Virus record (IMG/VR): IMGVR_UViG_3300045940_000214
Span: 1 to 21,917 of that record
DNA length: 21,917 nt
Reading direction: 5' to 3' (one strand)
DNA from: a virus
Part shown: positions 522 to 13,744 of the stretch, piece by piece
How the letters are laid out: each line of letters opens with the position of its first letter
How positions within the stretch are numbered: position 1 is the stretch's first letter
The notes under the pieces: generated by a model
Told to the model about the DNA's origin: nothing
The model's database searches: none
Seen by the model: only the letters and a program-made list of their open reading frames with translations
Made by a program: the position numbers and the translations under genes

Positions 522-709
522 GGTCGTGGGCCTCCTTGTGTTTGGTTGTGCCGGCGCACCTGCCCGCGCCTGCGCCGGTAGGCCTCTGCCTGGCTTGCCA
601 GCTCCCGCGCGTCCGGGTCGTAGATGCCCACCAGCGCCAGCAGGAGCGCCAGGATCAGAAAAGTCGCGGAGACGAAGCCGATGCCGAACGCGAGCCAAAA
701 CCCGTCCAT
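515..709 (-). CDS. Small single-pass membrane protein (64 aa)
   Basis: One strong hydrophobic segment (residues about 4-29, starting FWLAFGIGFVSATF) is followed by a hydrophilic tail with an Arg run near residue 46. This predicts one membrane helix with a basic, probably cytoplasmic, C-terminus. The ATG start overlaps the stop of the upstream HTH gene by one base (TGATG on the minus strand) and there is no good ribosome site, so coupled translation is likely. The end overlaps the next gene by 7 nt. Its place in a Cro-side early operon suggests an accessory or host-interaction role, such as superinfection control, but nothing in the sequence proves it. I do not recognise the family. Confidence 0.65.
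   Translation of the reverse strand: MDGFWLAFGIGFVSATFLILALLLALVGIYDPDARELASQAEAYRRRRGQVRRHNQTQGGPRPW
531..537 (-). promoter_or_regulatory. Strong ribosome binding site fixing a GTG start at 521
   Basis: The minus strand reads AAGGAGG here, then 9 nt, then GTG. This decides the start of the leftmost gene, which would otherwise be ambiguous. The site lies inside the upstream membrane-protein gene. Confidence 0.75.
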
Positions 710-1119
710 CAGGCGCTTGCCCGGGCCCGCAGGCGGGGCAACGGCCCTTCGGTGAGATGTCCGCCGGCACGGTCACCCGCCTGATGTGCCAGTCGCTCGA
801 CGCACCGCGCCGCGACCCGCGCCAGCTCGCCGGCCGCGAGCTCGTCGACGAGGGCCACCGCCCGTTCTACGGCCGGCGGGATGGGCGCGTCGTGCGGCAG
901 CAGCCGCTCCACGGCTGCCCGGTTGAGCACCACCCGCCCGCGCACCTTGCGCCCCGCCAGCGTGCCCTCCCGCCAGTGGCGCCGGACTGTCTCCGGCGAG
1001 AGTGAGAGCAGCGCCGCTGCCTCGTTCGGGGAGACGGTCGGCCCGGTCGGCCCGGTCGACGCCGGCGAGACGGGTGGCGCGTCAGGCCTCCCGGCCGCGC
1101 TCGGTAGAATCACGGTCAC
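709..1119 (-). CDS. MerR/excisionase-type helix-turn-helix DNA-binding protein
   Basis: Residues about 28-74 form a MerR-like winged HTH of the excisionase/HTH_17 type: a VSPNEAAALLSLSPETV helix-turn-helix, an HWREG wing start, and a GRVVLNRAAVERLL end. A Pro/Gly/Thr-rich leader precedes it. The C-terminal half (75-136) is Ala/Arg-rich and probably helical, with no family I can name. The GTG start at 1119 overlaps the TGA of the upstream CxxC frame by 4 bases (GTGA), suggesting coupling; its 3' end overlaps the membrane gene by one base. In this operon it could be the excisionase acting with the plus-strand integrase, or an early transcription regulator. The fold call is firm; the role is inference. 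Confidence 0.75.
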   Translation of the reverse strand: MTVILPSAAGRPDAPPVSPASTGPTGPTVSPNEAAALLSLSPETVRRHWREGTLAGRKVRGRVVLNRAAVERLLPHDAPIPPAVERAVALVDELAAGELARVAARCVERLAHQAGDRAGGHLTEGPLPRLRARASA

Positions 1120-1589: not shown

Positions 1590-2261
1590 GTGGGCATGCG
1601 GGAGGTGGGCGCCTTCGTGCGCCAGCAGCGCGACCAGCGCGGCTTTAGCCAGGCCGACCTTGCAGAGGCGGTCGGGATCGCCCGCTCGTACGTGTCGAAG
1701 ATCGAGCGCGGCGACGTGGACGGGCTCGGCCACGACGTGGTGCGTAACCTCGCCGGTGCGCTCGGCGTGCCCCAGGAGCACCTCGAGGCGTTGCTGTACG
1801 ACCGTGATCCGGCACGCCCGATCACGCCCGAGCCGGTGCTCCCGTTTGCGGTCGGCGTCGTGGCCCAAGCCAACGCGGGGAGGGCAGGGGGAGGGTACGT
1901 GGAGGACTTCGTGTACCTGCCGCCGTCCGAAGCCCGCGGGCGCTTCCTGCAGGTGGTGCGCGTCACCGGGGACTGCATGGAGCCGGAGCTTTCGCCCGGC
2001 GATCACGTGCTCATCGACCGCCGGGCGGTGCCCCAGGACGGGCAGATCGTGGTGTTCACCCTCGACGGCGGCGACGTCCTGATCAAGCGCTTCCACCGCG
2101 GCAACGGCTACCTGCTGCTGTGGTCGAACGGCGGCGATCACCTGCGACTCGCACCCGAGTCGGTGCAGATCGAGGGCGTGGTGCTGCGCATCATGAAAGT
2201 GCCCGAGCGGCGGGCCATGCCCGCTGTCCCCGCGGTCCCGGCTGGCTCGTTGGCCTCATGA
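1590..2261 (+). CDS. CI/LexA-type phage repressor: XRE HTH plus S24 peptidase domain with Cys nucleophile position
   Basis: Residues about 5-62 are an XRE helix-turn-helix (FSQADLAEAVGI, then recognition helix RSYVSKIERG). Residues about 105-203 are an S24 LexA/UmuD-like dimerisation and self-cleavage domain. The usual GDSMEP box reads GDCMEP, so Cys129 occupies the catalytic Ser place; the general-base Lys is present at 166 (VLIKRFHR). Two Ala-Gly bonds, 96-97 and 99-100, lie in the linker as candidate self-cleavage sites. Start is GTG 1590 or ATG 1596, both close to the predicted transcript start. It faces the Cro-like gene across twin operators and is followed 25 bp later by the integrase, so the two form a lysogeny operon. 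Known family role: silence lytic promoters, with RecA-stimulated inactivation on DNA damage. Whether this Cys variant cleaves is unproven. Confidence 0.9.
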   Translation: MGMREVGAFVRQQRDQRGFSQADLAEAVGIARSYVSKIERGDVDGLGHDVVRNLAGALGVPQEHLEALLYDRDPARPITPEPVLPFAVGVVAQANAGRAGGGYVEDFVYLPPSEARGRFLQVVRVTGDCMEPELSPGDHVLIDRRAVPQDGQIVVFTLDGGDVLIKRFHRGNGYLLLWSNGGDHLRLAPESVQIEGVVLRIMKVPERRAMPAVPAVPAGSLAS

Positions 2262-2286: not shown

Positions 2287-3447
2287 GTGTCCACCGTGCC
2301 AGGCCGGCACAAGCGGGGACAGGGCGACGGTTCGTACGACCGGCTTCCCAACGGCACCTGGCGCGGGCGCGTGACCCTCGACGGCGCGCGGCGCGCGGTC
2401 TACGGCCCGACGCGGGCCAACGTCGTCGCCCAGGCCGACGCGCTGCGCCGCCGCCACCGCGAGGGGCGGCTGCCCGCGTGCGTACCGGCCCACACCACCC
2501 TGGCCGGCGCGCTCGAACGGTTGCTCGAGGCGAAGGTAGCCGGGGGGCTCACCGGCCGACACCTGGACACGCACCGGCGCAACACCGCGACGCACCTGGC
2601 GCCCCTACACGCCGTGCGGGTCGAGCAGCTGGCCGCCGCCGACGTGCGCGGGCTGCTGGCGGCGCTGCTCGCGACGCGCGCCCCTGCCACGGTGCGCCAC
2701 GTGCGCTCGACGCTGCGCCAGGCGATGGCCCTGGCGGTCGTGGACGGGCTGGCGGTGCGCAACGTGGTCGACGACGTCCCCGCTCCCCGGCTGCCGCGCC
2801 GGCCGCCGCGGGCGCTGCAAGACGCCGAGCTGGCGCGGTTCTGGCGCGCGGCCCGGAAGCACCGGCTGTACGCCCTGTGGCTGCTGGCGGCCCGCACCGG
2901 CCTGCGCCAGGGCGAGCAGCGGGCGCTGCGCTGGACGGACATCGACAAACGCGCCGGCACCCTGACCGTCCAGCACACCATGCCGTGGCCGGGCACGCCC
3001 GACGGCGAGAAGGCGGCTAAGTCACTCGCCGGCGACCGCACGTTCGGGCTGACGCCGGGCATCCTCGCCGCGCTGGCCGCGCACCACGACCGGCAGGACG
3101 AGGAGCGCGCGCACGCCGGCACGCGCTGGCGCGAATCCGGTCTGGTGTTCACCACCGTGTGGGGCCGGGTGCTGCGGAACAACGCCATCTGGCGGGCGTT
3201 CCAGGAAGTCAAGTGCGCCGCGGCCCTCGCCGACCGGGTCCGGCCCCACGACCTGCGCCACACCGCCGCGTCGCACCTGCTGGCGGCTGGCGTCTCGCCC
3301 GCGGAGGTGGCCCAAATCCTGGGCCACGCCAGCGTGGCCGTGACCACGTCGATCTACGCCGGCTGGATTCGGCGCGGGGGCAGCGCCGCGCTGCAGGCCG
3401 TCGAGGACCGGGACCAAGGTTGGTCAACGAGTGACCAACCGGAGTGA
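2287..3447 (+). CDS. int: Phage tyrosine recombinase (integrase)
   Basis: A full-length 386-aa integrase. Residues about 14-60 resemble the arm-binding AP2-like domain (GSYDRLPNGTWRGRV), 65-155 the SAM-like core-binding domain, and 175-375 the catalytic domain. Visible catalytic residues are Arg207 (TGLRQGE), probably Lys245 in the hairpin (KAAKSLAGD), His321 and Arg324 (PHDLRHTAASH), His347 (LGHASV) and Tyr357 (SIYAGW). The set looks complete, so the enzyme should be active. GTG 2287 is the farthest start; an in-frame GTG at 2296 is possible. It follows the repressor on the same strand. The last 30 bases carry a perfect 9-bp inverted repeat of TGACCAACC that recurs downstream near the presumed attP. 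It converges with the late operon. Confidence 0.95.
   Translation: MSTVPGRHKRGQGDGSYDRLPNGTWRGRVTLDGARRAVYGPTRANVVAQADALRRRHREGRLPACVPAHTTLAGALERLLEAKVAGGLTGRHLDTHRRNTATHLAPLHAVRVEQLAAADVRGLLAALLATRAPATVRHVRSTLRQAMALAVVDGLAVRNVVDDVPAPRLPRRPPRALQDAELARFWRAARKHRLYALWLLAARTGLRQGEQRALRWTDIDKRAGTLTVQHTMPWPGTPDGEKAAKSLAGDRTFGLTPGILAALAAHHDRQDEERAHAGTRWRESGLVFTTVWGRVLRNNAIWRAFQEVKCAAALADRVRPHDLRHTAASHLLAAGVSPAEVAQILGHASVAVTTSIYAGWIRRGGSAALQAVEDRDQGWSTSDQPE
3418..3440. repeat. Perfect inverted repeat, 9-bp arms, at the 3' end of int
   Basis: GGTTGGTCA (3418-3426) and TGACCAACC (3432-3440) are separated by ACGAG. The arms recur as direct copies at 3650-3658 and 3661-3669. They may be arm-type integrase sites. 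A terminator hairpin is less likely because no T-run follows and the repeat lies inside the coding end. Confidence 0.75.
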
Positions 3448-3451
3448 CGCG

Positions 3452-3505
3452 GTGCCGTGCGCGCTGTGCGCCGCGTGCGCCGTGGGCGCGTTCTACCAGG
3501 AGTAG
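3452..3505 (+). CDS. Possible 17-aa cysteine-rich peptide after int (uncertain)
   Basis: GTG at 3452 is preceded by GGAG (3441-3444) with a 7-nt gap; the GGAG overlaps the stop region of int. The peptide carries three cysteines as CxxCxxC (positions 3, 6 and 9) and stops at TAG 3503-3505. Tiny CxxC-bearing ORFs arise easily in GC-rich DNA rich in TGC/GCG, so chance is the leading alternative. Confidence 0.18.
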   Translation: MPCALCAACAVGAFYQE

Positions 3506-3649
3506 CCCGTGCACGGTCGGCAGGCTCGTTGGCGGGGCAAGTCGCTTACGGGCCTGCTTGGCTTGGACACGCGCGCAGCCGGTTCCGCCCATTGCCTCCC
3601 TGGCTGGATCGCAGCACGCACGCGGTAGGGCACACCCGCGTGGGCGTAG

Positions 3650-3669
3650 TGACCAACCGCTGACCAACC
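3650..3669 (+). repeat. Two direct TGACCAACC boxes (putative integrase arm sites)
   Basis: TGACCAACC occurs at 3650-3658 and again at 3661-3669, spaced 11 bp start to start, about one helical turn. With the inverted pair at the end of int they make four copies flanking the presumed attP, the layout expected for arm-binding sites of a tyrosine integrase. Confidence 0.55.
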
Positions 3670-3696
3670 GGGTCATCCGTCCAGGCGCACCGTGCC

Positions 3697-3753
3697 TCAG
3701 CCGAACAGCAGCGCCGCCGCCGTCACGAACGCCAGGCACAACCAGGCGATCAC
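3697..3753 (-). CDS. Tiny 18-aa hydrophobic membrane peptide
   Basis: A GTG overlaps the TGA of the preceding holin-like gene as GTGA, the coupling arrangement used several times in this operon. It encodes an 18-residue, almost wholly hydrophobic peptide (begins with Ile-Ala-Trp-Leu, ends Leu-Leu-Phe-Gly), long enough to be one short membrane helix. It is the last reading frame of the late operon. It could be an auxiliary lysis peptide, or simply the far end of a late transcript that happens to be open. It is too short for homology; the overlap and composition are the only support. Confidence 0.3.
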   Translation of the reverse strand: MIAWLCLAFVTAAALLFG

Positions 3754-3953
3754 GGCGCCCGCCTCCACTGGTCGGCGGCGTGGTTCTGCTGCCGGTCGGC
3801 CAGGTGCGCCAGGGTGTCGATGAGCTTGGCGTTTTCGTCGCGGAGCGCCCGCATGTTGGCGCGGCATTCTCGCACGTGGAGCACCCAGCCGGTCAGGGCG
3901 ATGGCGAGCGCTGCCGCCGTGCCGGTGAGATTGGCGAGCTGCTCGCCGGTCAT
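3750..3953 (-). CDS. Holin-like small membrane protein with coiled-coil tail (67 aa)
   Basis: Residues about 11-27 are one membrane helix (GTAAALAIALTGWVL). The rest is charged and heptad-like (NMRALRDENAKLIDTLAHL), a probable coiled coil. One helix plus a charged coiled coil at the end of the tail operon is typical of small phage holins or holin-like lysis proteins. The ATG at 3953 follows the stop of the tail appendage gene by 5 nt and has AGGTG just upstream. No endolysin lies beside it in this window, which is unusual if it is the holin. A tail-associated or superinfection membrane protein is the alternative. Confidence 0.55.
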   Translation of the reverse strand: MTGEQLANLTGTAAALAIALTGWVLHVRECRANMRALRDENAKLIDTLAHLADRQQNHAADQWRRAP

Positions 3954-3958
3954 GGCAC

Positions 3959-4987
3959 CTAGGCAATCTGCCGGACGCCAAACTGGCTGGCATTGAGGTC
4001 GGCGATGGTCCACGCCGCGGCGGTATCCGGATTGGTATCCCAGCGTTCGCTGGCCATGCCGTAGGCGACGCCGAGGCCCTGCGTCGCGCCGACGTGGTTG
4101 GTGCTTCCCGGCCGCGCAACGAGCGCGATACTCCCCGACCCGGCGGCGTCGTCGCGCGCCAGCGCCGTCGCCTGGACCGCCTGGATCGTGCCGCTGAGGG
4201 TGAGGAGGTCGGCGAAGGTATAGGTATCGGTATTGCCGGCCGCCGCCGACGAGACGTAATCGGTATCGCCGTTGGGCGGCGCGTCGTCGACGCACTGGTA
4301 GTTGCTGCCGGCCGACGGCGTCCATGCCGTACTGGCTCCGGCGCCGTTGGGCACGATCTGCTCGACCCGGCAGTCGCCCGCAAAGTCGTTGTTGACGCTG
4401 CCGGTCGCATCGAAGATGTAGATATCGTCGTAGTCGTCGTTCGCGCCCGTAACGGCGACGCCGAAGTGGCCGAGCCGGACGACGCCCGCGTACGCCCCGG
4501 CGCCGTTCCGCGTGTCGACGCCGGTCAGGTTGAGGATGGTCGTGCCGTTCACCCGTACGACGACGACGCCGGCGGTGTCGTCGATCGTGCATTTCACCTC
4601 GATATAGGCCCAGGTGTTCGGCATCGGCGACCACGGCGTCGAGCTGAGTCCGGTACTCGGCGTCCCGCGCCAGGCGAAGAGGACGCCGGTATCGGTAGTA
4701 AGGGAGATACCGCAGTGCTGCGTGCCGCCGTCGTGGAAGGAGAGCAGCATCAACGGCGCGTTGGGCAGCGCAGAGATACGGAACGCGAAGCCGACGATCC
4801 AGGTCGCGAGCGGATCGCGGGTGAGCTGCATGGTGCCATTGGTGCTGCCGGTCGCGCGTCGGATGCCGTTGCCGTAGCGGCCGAACGACGGATCGATCGA
4901 CAACCCGCCGCCGAGCGACGACCACTTGCCGGCGTAGTCCGCGATCGTTGTACTGCTCTCCCATCCCTCGATCAAGCGCGCGACCAT
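3959..4987 (-). CDS. Tail appendage/fibre protein with LamG (concanavalin-like) fold
   Basis: 342 residues, beta-rich. Residues about 1-210 look like a LamG/concanavalin A-like jelly roll: WIVGFAFRIS strands, a FAWRGTPS turn, the PNTWAYIEVKCTIDDTAGVVVVRVNG strand pair, and an NDDYDDIYIFD segment typical of such phage tail proteins. A second part (about 215-342) ends in alternating Ala, Thr and aromatic residues. ATG 4987 has AAGGA about 11 nt upstream. As the last large gene of the tail module, it is probably a host-recognition or glycan-binding tip component. It matches no named receptor-binding protein I recognise, so the ligand is unknown. Confidence 0.7.
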   Translation of the reverse strand: MVARLIEGWESSTTIADYAGKWSSLGGGLSIDPSFGRYGNGIRRATGSTNGTMQLTRDPLATWIVGFAFRISALPNAPLMLLSFHDGGTQHCGISLTTDTGVLFAWRGTPSTGLSSTPWSPMPNTWAYIEVKCTIDDTAGVVVVRVNGTTILNLTGVDTRNGAGAYAGVVRLGHFGVAVTGANDDYDDIYIFDATGSVNNDFAGDCRVEQIVPNGAGASTAWTPSAGSNYQCVDDAPPNGDTDYVSSAAAGNTDTYTFADLLTLSGTIQAVQATALARDDAAGSGSIALVARPGSTNHVGATQGLGVAYGMASERWDTNPDTAAAWTIADLNASQFGVRQIA

Positions 4988-5031: not shown

Positions 5032-5217
5032 CTACTCTAACCAGATGATCCACGCGCGCCGGCCCGGTAGCGGGCCGATGACGAGGACGTCGACGACGAG
5101 CTGCGTCGTCCGGACCGCGGGCGCGGCGACCATCGCCTCGACGGCGAGCTGCGTCGTGCGGACCGCGCCGCTGGCGACGAGCACCTCGACCGTAACCTGC
5201 GTCGTCCGGACCGCCAT
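5032..5217 (-). CDS. Mini tail protein made of three tandem 16-aa VRTTQ repeats
   Basis: The 61-aa product is almost entirely three imperfect 16-residue repeats beginning VRTTQ (residues 3-18, 19-34, 35-50), each followed by an alternating hydrophobic strand such as VTVEVLV. It ends in a short tail PGRRAWIIWLE. Similar (R)(V/T)TQxxVEVLV strands occur as spacer or beta-stacking motifs in phage tail proteins; here they stand alone. ATG 5217 lies 6 nt after the stop of the tail appendage gene upstream. It may be a tip accessory that assembles as a beta-structure with its neighbours. The repeats are plain in the sequence; the function is inference. Confidence 0.65.
   Translation of the reverse strand: MAVRTTQVTVEVLVASGAVRTTQLAVEAMVAAPAVRTTQLVVDVLVIGPLPGRRAWIIWLE
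5068..5211 (-). repeat. Three tandem 48-bp coding repeats
   Basis: Units at 5164-5211, 5116-5163 and 5068-5115 each code a 16-residue VRTTQ-type repeat. They differ at the nucleotide level, so the duplication is not recent, or the protein sequence is under selection. Confidence 0.75.
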
Positions 5218-5223
5218 CGCCGG

Positions 5224-5736
5224 TCAGGCCGCCTGCCAGTGGAGGATCAGCGTGGCTCGGGTAATCCCGCTCACACTCTCGTTGACCAGTTGCAGCACGC
5301 AATTCGCCTCCAAGTCGACGTCCCATCCGGTCACCGGCTGGTCGGCCGCCTTGCGCGCGCTCGATAGGGTCGGCTTGCTGCCCCCGCAGATCGACGCGCC
5401 GGCCGCGAGGTCGCCGGCCGTGGCCGGGAAATCGGCCCACGTCGCGGCCTTCCGGACGTCGATCACCATCGAGCCGACCTCCTTGGACACCAGCGACCAC
5501 GCCGTGAGCGTGCGCGCGGCCGCCGGCATCTCGAATTCGACCGCGCTGCCGGTCGCCAGTACGGCGCCGCCGCGGTCGAGCACGATAGCCACGCCGACCG
5601 GCCGGTGCAGGTTGTGGACGTGGGCATCGAGCAGCAGCCGCACCGAGCGCAGCGCGACACCGGCCGCCTTGCGGTAGACGTTGCGCCACATGCCGTCCAA
5701 CCGGGCGGCGCCGGGGTCGTAGAGGTCGGTCGTCAT
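5224..5736 (-). CDS. Phage tail appendage/baseplate protein (170 aa)
   Basis: The C-terminal 100 residues carry the pattern of a widespread phage tail domain: a GSMVIDVRKA strand, a WADFPATAGD segment, a SICGGSKPTLSSARKA loop, GWDVDL, then LVNESVSGITRATLILHW. I recognise this from many siphovirus tail-tip proteins, where it is a beta-sandwich appended to fibres. Residues 1-45 contain a helix and a DAHVHNLHRPVGVAI strand. The ATG at 5736 lies at the end of a triple 11-bp repeat that itself contains ATG, and no strong Shine-Dalgarno is present. The order hub, this gene, VRTTQ repeat protein, LamG protein suggests stacked tip components. Confidence 0.75.
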   Translation of the reverse strand: MTTDLYDPGAARLDGMWRNVYRKAAGVALRSVRLLLDAHVHNLHRPVGVAIVLDRGGAVLATGSAVEFEMPAAARTLTAWSLVSKEVGSMVIDVRKAATWADFPATAGDLAAGASICGGSKPTLSSARKAADQPVTGWDVDLEANCVLQLVNESVSGITRATLILHWQAA

Positions 5737-13465: not shown

Positions 13466-13744
13466 CTACCGGGTCCGCCCCGTCCGTCCCGTGCGCATCG
13501 CGCCGGCGGGCGCGCGCCGGGATCGCGCGGGCTCGGGTTCCGGCTCGGGCTCCGGCTCGGGTTCGGGCTCCGGCTCGGGCTCCGGCTCCGGCTCCGGCGC
13601 GGGTGTCCCGACCACTTCGACCACTTCGGCGAAGCCGGCGGCGAACCACGCCGGGTCGACCTCGGCGTCGGGCACCTCGGCCACCTGGCCGGGACCGAAG
13701 CGCCCGCTGGGCGTCCCCACCGTGGTCAGGAACCGGAGCCTCAC
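13466..13744 (-). CDS. Small phage protein with a Pro-Glu repeat
   Basis: Residues 1-45 form a compact module (RFLTTVGTPSGRFGPGQVAEVP, then DAEVDPAWFAAGFAEVVE) seen in many phages as a small protein between capsid and connector genes. Residues about 48-71 are a run of 11 Pro-Glu dipeptides, then an Arg-rich tail with a GRTGRTR end. The GTG at 13744 overlaps the upstream stop as GTGA. The acidic rod followed by basic tail could be an extended linker; the function of the conserved module is not known to me. Confidence 0.7.
   Translation of the reverse strand: MRLRFLTTVGTPSGRFGPGQVAEVPDAEVDPAWFAAGFAEVVEVVGTPAPEPEPEPEPEPEPEPEPEPEPEPARSRRAPAGAMRTGRTGRTR
13532..13597 (-). repeat. (Pro-Glu)11 coding repeat
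   Basis: Eleven CC(G/C)-GA(G/A) codon pairs in tandem, 66 bp, with mixed third positions, inside the small protein gene after the head decoration gene. It makes an acidic, extended polyproline-like rod. Confidence 0.9.

Follow-up and report, generated by a model that had tools for sequence, protein, structure and literature searches.

The end of the integrase gene int in this viral DNA carries four copies of one nine-base word, TGACCAACC, two within the last codons of the gene and two beyond it, raising the question of whether the copies are arm-type sites of the integrase and the stretch that they span is the phage attachment site, attP. In the window, meaning the whole stretch of 21,917 nucleotides that was analyzed, an exact-word scan found TGACCAACC at these four sites only, where the first-pass annotation had placed them (Table 1). 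Judged from the sequence and its relatives, the boxes are very probably arm-type sites of the integrase encoded at 2287–3447, with 3418–3669 as the phage attP. The evidence for this reading, its rivals, and the predicted position of the crossover are presented below.

Table 1. Coordinates of the predicted attP region and the neighboring genes in the window
Feature	Position	Strand	Basis
HTH_17 protein, candidate excisionase	709–1119	-	Pfam HTH_17 1.1e-7; role inferred
S24/HTH (CI/LexA-like) repressor	1590–2261	+	Pfam Peptidase_S24 3.9e-14, HTH_31 8.8e-14; PHROG 4 repressor 1.4e-28
int, tyrosine integrase, 386 aa	2287–3447	+	Pfam Phage_integrase 2.1e-22; PHROG 1 integrase 1e-61
Arm-type box 1 (putative)	3418–3426	-	exact TGACCAACC; int codons 378–380
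Arm-type box 2 (putative)	3432–3440	+	exact TGACCAACC; int codons 382–385
Interval expected to contain attP core	3441–3649	.	209 bp; geometry of relatives
Candidate core (tentative)	3535–3562	.	weak inverted half-sites near CAAG (3538–3541) and CTTG (3557–3560); by eye
Arm-type box 3 (putative)	3650–3658	+	exact TGACCAACC; outside int
Arm-type box 4 (putative)	3661–3669	+	exact TGACCAACC; 11 bp from box 3, start to start

The integrase and its genomic setting

The window sits whole, at 99.94% identity, in the 40,466-bp record IMGVR_UViG_3300049730_000275. Six positions of the integrase, which we take to be the catalytic residues (R207, K245, H321, R324, H347, and Y357), are invariant in an alignment of Int with six relatives (7 sequences). 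The AlphaFold2 model of the protein (pLDDT 86.4) has its best PDB matches, covering core-binding and catalytic domains, in the integrases of Tn1549 (6emz_A; Z 22.3, rmsd 3.8, 293 residues) and lambda (1z19_B; Z 19.9, rmsd 3.0, 268 residues). In the model the N-terminal 60 residues are predicted to form a beta-beta-beta-alpha domain, and three strands plus a helix is the shape of the arm-binding domains in lambda-like integrases. No Pfam match was obtained for this N-domain, and a Foldseek search with the domain alone returned nothing at E ≤ 0.001; the weak matches include AP2 domains, and an integrase N-domain is absent among the 50 matches listed. The C-terminal tail of Int extends past the region conserved in relatives, so that its sequence can be shaped by DNA sites.

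The S24/HTH repressor gene lies immediately upstream of int, and the HTH_17 gene is located to the left of the repressor gene on the opposite strand. Genes for the large terminase, portal, head protease, and major head protein are found farther right in the window, and the presence of integrase, repressor, and structural genes points to a temperate tailed phage. Elsewhere in the window, three head-to-tail copies of GTCTGTGCG at 484–510 are followed by a partial fourth.

Geometry and statistics of the boxes

Boxes 1 and 2 form a perfect inverted pair (3418–3440) with a 5-base gap inside the last int codons, and boxes 3 and 4 form a direct pair one helical turn apart, both as first annotated. 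The "250-bp gap" of that annotation needs correction, since the inner gap is 209 bp and it is the full array that spans 252 bp. The enclosing 40,466-bp record contains the identical four boxes at identical spacings and no further copies; being the same phage over the whole window, it does not provide independent evidence.

The clustering of the boxes exceeds chance. When up to one mismatch is allowed, the window has 11 TGACCAACC-like sites compared with a shuffle mean of 3.28, and none of 100 shuffles reached at least 11. When 9-mers were screened for four or more copies, free of overlap, inside 260 bp, two words of the window passed, TGACCAACC and GCCGGAGCC (near 13548). With no condition on A/T content some 9-mer also passed in 16 of 300 shuffles, whereas a clustered 9-mer with at least three A/T bases occurred in none of the 300 (TGACCAACC has four). 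Both the A/T filter and the exclusion of overlaps postdate an earlier run in which a four-copy 9-mer, overlaps counted, appeared in 74 of 100 shuffles, and the dinucleotide shuffles are approximate, with a random fallback once the transition list is exhausted. An equally good two-plus-two array was seen in 0 of 40 shuffles of the int end.

The int end also holds a partial box, GGACCAAGG, at 3411–3419, and the word GAGTGAC at 3429, repeated at 3442; the GAGTGAC repeats are possibly a decayed further box. The four copies of GCCGGAGCC are spaced 12–18 bp apart at 13548–13598, inside ORFs.

Arrays in phages with related integrases

Fourteen phages with related integrases, six from the top list and eight among 60 entries of a spread list, were picked before their arrays were inspected. 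The search extended from 150 bp upstream to 450 bp downstream of the int stop and looked for one 8-mer at four sites, with at most one mismatch each and in either orientation, two of the sites lying within 9–16 bp and two more 140–300 bp off. Such a two-plus-two array is present in 10 of the 14 (ZM2, Giles, phiMa, GBSV1, Emery, Bert, phiJB, ThulaThula, REQ2, and IN93), where Giles and ZM2 are near relatives counted as two of the ten. In these phages one box pair, 10–12 bp apart, lies near the int stop and the second roughly 170–230 bp away; shuffling, 40 times per phage, gave no equally good array for eight of them, one for Bert, and six for IN93. The search was negative in Tsatsa, PeggyLeg03, MJing1, and prophiGD51-2, the last of which has a record cut at the attachment site and shows an array once the record ends are joined. 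What these ten relatives share with the window is the layout; the box word itself differs among the phages.

The near pair lies within int in IN93, ThulaThula, and REQ2, and the first box of phiJB overlaps the int stop, so the earlier suggestion that part of the attP arm is embedded in the coding sequence has parallels in four relatives, and an arm of this kind is not unusual. A tRNA T-loop motif is found between the box pairs in 7 of the 10 array-bearing relatives, at a chance level of about 0.02 per interval (an arithmetic estimate rather than one from shuffles), and the phiJB motif may be a chance occurrence. This placement of the motif argues for a core between the two pairs, as had been proposed for the window; the motif itself is absent in the window, as it is in GBSV1, Emery, and Bert.

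In the GBSV1 locus (L225), the stretch between the box pairs lacks the tRNA motif and resembles by eye the end of a groEL gene, so that the attB of this phage may be protein-coding. In the IN93 locus (L017), GGGGACCAAC-like repeats with 10-bp spacing occur within int at about -71 to -45 of the stop, and this run is additional to the GACACCT array of that phage.

Comparison with known attachment sites

The attP of the mycobacteriophage Giles (and ZM2) resembles that of the window in having two pairs of sites close to the int stop, with a within-pair distance of 12 bp and first boxes separated by 221 bp. Its box, TGACCCCAATT on the other strand, differs from the window word, its four boxes are co-oriented as two direct pairs past the int stop, and a tRNA-like stretch lies between the pairs. 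The Thermus phages IN93 and phiMa have two-plus-two arrays in which distances of 211 and 221 bp, respectively, separate the first boxes, and the near pair of IN93 is inside int as in the window. Unlike in the window, the boxes of these two phages (GACACCT and TGGTGGTCA, respectively) are all co-oriented and a tRNA-like stretch separates the pairs; the IN93 array is the weak one in shuffles. The mixed orientation has a parallel in the mycobacterial prophage prophiGD51-2, in which the int side has an inverted box followed by a direct one, a direct pair lies on the far side, and the boxes read TGACC in the int sense as they do here. Joining the ends of the prophiGD51-2 record places the reversed box at +31, with direct boxes following at +45 and +57 and the far direct pair past the core. 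It differs from the window in having a full direct pair plus the inverted box on the near side, in its box word (TGACCCCA), and in its tRNA-like core, and the Int identity is 33%. The 7-mer of its box recurs in the joined sequence, both within the repeated core and at +469.

In the lambda-like systems of PMC10865867 (in the portion available), the attP core is flanked by pairs of putative arm-type sites, and the available portion of PMC3203893 describes pairs of putative arm sites for Giles and L5, paired arm sites flanking the core in CrimD, and arm-site words that differ among cluster K phages. According to the same portion, the cluster K mycobacteriophages CrimD and Pixie resemble the window both in the arm-site pairs on either side of the core and in mixed orientation, P3/P4 being inverted relative to P1/P2 in CrimD and P1 being reversed beside a direct pair in Pixie. 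The K1 phages differ in that the core lies 5' of int, within tmRNA, and Pixie in having six sites and an attB that overlaps a tRNA gene (PMC3203893). Lambda Int is heterobivalent, with an N-terminal arm domain plus core-binding and catalytic domains, as is predicted for the integrase of the window; lambda attP has five arm sites, and host bending proteins and Xis sites are known there (PMC4880445, in part). The excerpted text of PMC2951348 describes arm sites over an int promoter, an arrangement different from that of the window. The predicted attP is of a known lambda-like kind, in which the int-proximal arm enters int and one box is reversed.

Related integrase loci in bacterial genomes and the probable host

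The best relative of the integrase (40% identity) is in genome G235 of the phylum Chloroflexota, which also contains many of the other relatives; this phylum is that of G002, the genome with Chloroflexi bacterium MGR_bin359. The window terminase shares 62% identity with a terminase of G356, another genome of this phylum, and the contig that carries the G356 terminase also encodes a related integrase. From these sequence relationships the host is likely to belong to Chloroflexota.

Related integrases with enough flanking sequence were available at 42 loci (among L064–L107), 40 of them in the phylum of G002 and G006 and two (L064 and L070) in the Micromonospora genome G003; since the two phylum draws largely overlapped, the loci are not samples of two phyla. 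The 42 exclude six phage loci, L029 (the same place as L065), L102 (stop not reached), and L067 (below the E ≤ 1e-10 cut). A direct pair of an exact 8-mer, spaced 10–13 bp and lying in the stretch from -100 to +60 relative to the int stop, was found at 22 of the 42 loci compared with 3 of 126 control windows, the controls being inside int coding sequence and the tested stretch partly intergenic. Together with the phage arrays, this supports the earlier identification of the boxes as putative arm-type sites. Of these 22 pairs, 20 have a spacing of 12 bp; the remaining 20 of the 42 loci gave no direct pair in the test. One of the 22, the L068 pair (13 bp, at -64), appears to be a chance pair. 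GTCA/TGAC, the part common to the boxes of the window, Giles, and phiMa, occurs in the pair or at its edge in 11 of the 22; the remaining word differs, which suggests that the box word changes with the integrase. At the int end, inverted 8-mer pairs showed no clear enrichment (8 of 42 loci versus 12 of 126 control windows).

In queries with the integrase and portal for sister phages, the single close match was the enclosing record. Among 597 confirmed terminase relatives the best 80 were kept, and the 83 loci of the portal and terminase searches, three of which come from the enclosing record and do not all extend to int, contained no related integrase at E ≤ 1e-5; L255 has a partial integrase match (1.6e-5). 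A literature search for attP of Chloroflexota prophages found no report in the collection searched, and one on arm-type sites turned up a paper on Oenococcus prophages.

The predicted core and the search for attB

The crossover is predicted near the midpoint between the arms, at about 3545, and the candidate core listed in Table 1 is located at this midpoint. An inverted-repeat scan limited to spacers of 5–9 did not have the CAAG/CTTG half-sites among its results. The core does not resemble a tRNA 3' half, the form recognized in several relatives: there is no T-loop motif between the box pairs, no tRNA was detected, and no Rfam match was obtained within 3380–3760.

When the 209-bp interval was compared by BLAST with 18 genomes of the G356 order, all 18 gave weak matches (best E 8.9e-4, 83% over ~40 bases) and no convincing attB. 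Against 400 genomes of the phylum, with at most two scored candidates per listed genome, four weak matches were obtained at E ≤ 1e-4 (82–84% over ~40 bases, in a G+C-rich part), again with no convincing attB. The matches of both searches were judged to be noise. The stretch 3500–3600 gave nothing at E ≤ 0.001 in 294 genomes of the class, with at most three scored candidates per listed genome. A 16-mer of the predicted core occurs in eight stretches of viral contigs, its own record included, which was judged near chance level without a computed base count. As no attB, attL, or attR was found in these draws of 18, 400, and 294 genomes, the crossover is a predicted and not a mapped position.

Proposed mode of action and alternative explanations

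From the boxes, the integrase, and the layout common to relatives, all directly observed, we infer binding, bridging, and the position of the core. The small N-terminal domain of Int would hold the boxes on both sides, and the core-binding and catalytic domains would work on the enclosed core, whose predicted position is near 3545. Int molecules would bridge the arms and the core and recombine attP with the host attB, the int-proximal arm overlapping the last int codons.

A distinctly improbable alternative keeps box 2 and the direct pair as integrase sites and assigns the inverted box 1 to an RNA hairpin ending int, either as a terminator or as a brake on int positioned, like lambda sib (mentioned in the available part of PMC2951348), distal to the gene. 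The inverted pair does provide a 9-bp stem with a 5-base loop that lies within the minimum-energy structure, but the hairpin has no T tract, no terminator-like site was found, and its folding energy is unremarkable (z -1.42, equalled in 13 of 200 shuffles). The stem is the same word that recurs ~220 bp away, and an inverted box ahead of a direct pair is likewise present in prophiGD51-2 and L081. It is very unlikely that the boxes are operators through which the S24 repressor or the HTH_17 protein controls int or neighboring genes. Both proteins are encoded nearby, and dimeric repressors suit inverted repeats; however, even with one mismatch allowed, no box lies to the left of 3418, the side that holds the repressor and HTH_17 genes, no sigma-70-like promoter was found in 3300–4000, and the layout accompanies integrase genes in relatives. 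That the boxes are chance or coding-sequence repeats without function is hardly credible: although viral contigs with no recognized integrase nearby also carry the tandem word, none of 40 shuffles had an equal two-plus-two array and none of 300 a comparable cluster, and boxes 3 and 4 are outside int.

Taken alone, the attP of the window would be ordinary phage biology. As arm-type sites of Int, the boxes would define a precise predicted attP. The temperate phage probably has a Chloroflexota host, and its attP might thus serve for building an integration vector for this phylum. The boxes would also add one more integrase/arm-site pair to the question of how the N-domain chooses its box, raised for cluster K in the available portion of PMC3203893.

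The reversed box

All ten relatives' arrays have their four boxes in the same orientation, whereas box 1 of the window is reversed; a reversed box before a direct pair is otherwise found in prophiGD51-2 and in L081, a locus from the phylum of G002. An unlikely possibility is that integrase sits head to head on 3418–3440, giving an intasome unlike the usual type with four direct boxes, where the bound integrase could organize the int-side arm and also exert feedback on int, in a phage with an attB that is not a tRNA gene. If true, the feedback on int could act by a roadblock or an mRNA hairpin.

The box word in other viral contigs

The exact tandem TGACCAACC pair is found in 83 stretches of viral contigs. 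In the best 80 of these 83 (L139–L218, which do not include the enclosing record), a profile search found no integrase within 1 kb of the pair, with a profile built from only 7 sequences that found two ORFs overall and may be insensitive. Since the tandem word occurs in contigs lacking a recognized integrase, the word alone is not diagnostic, and the identification of attP follows from its place beside int together with the two-plus-two layout. The linker is 3 bases long in 61 of the 80 loci and reads TCA in 41. A literature search for TGACCAACC returned matches that, among those listed, appear unrelated by title. Runs of 7 and 8 copies of TGACCAACC with a period of 12 are present in L177 and L217, respectively. 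In L196, a phage contig with no recognized integrase near its repeats at 5168–5426, GGTTGGTCA occurs three times with 11-bp spacing (5168, 5179, and 5190), and TGACCAACC lies at 5418.
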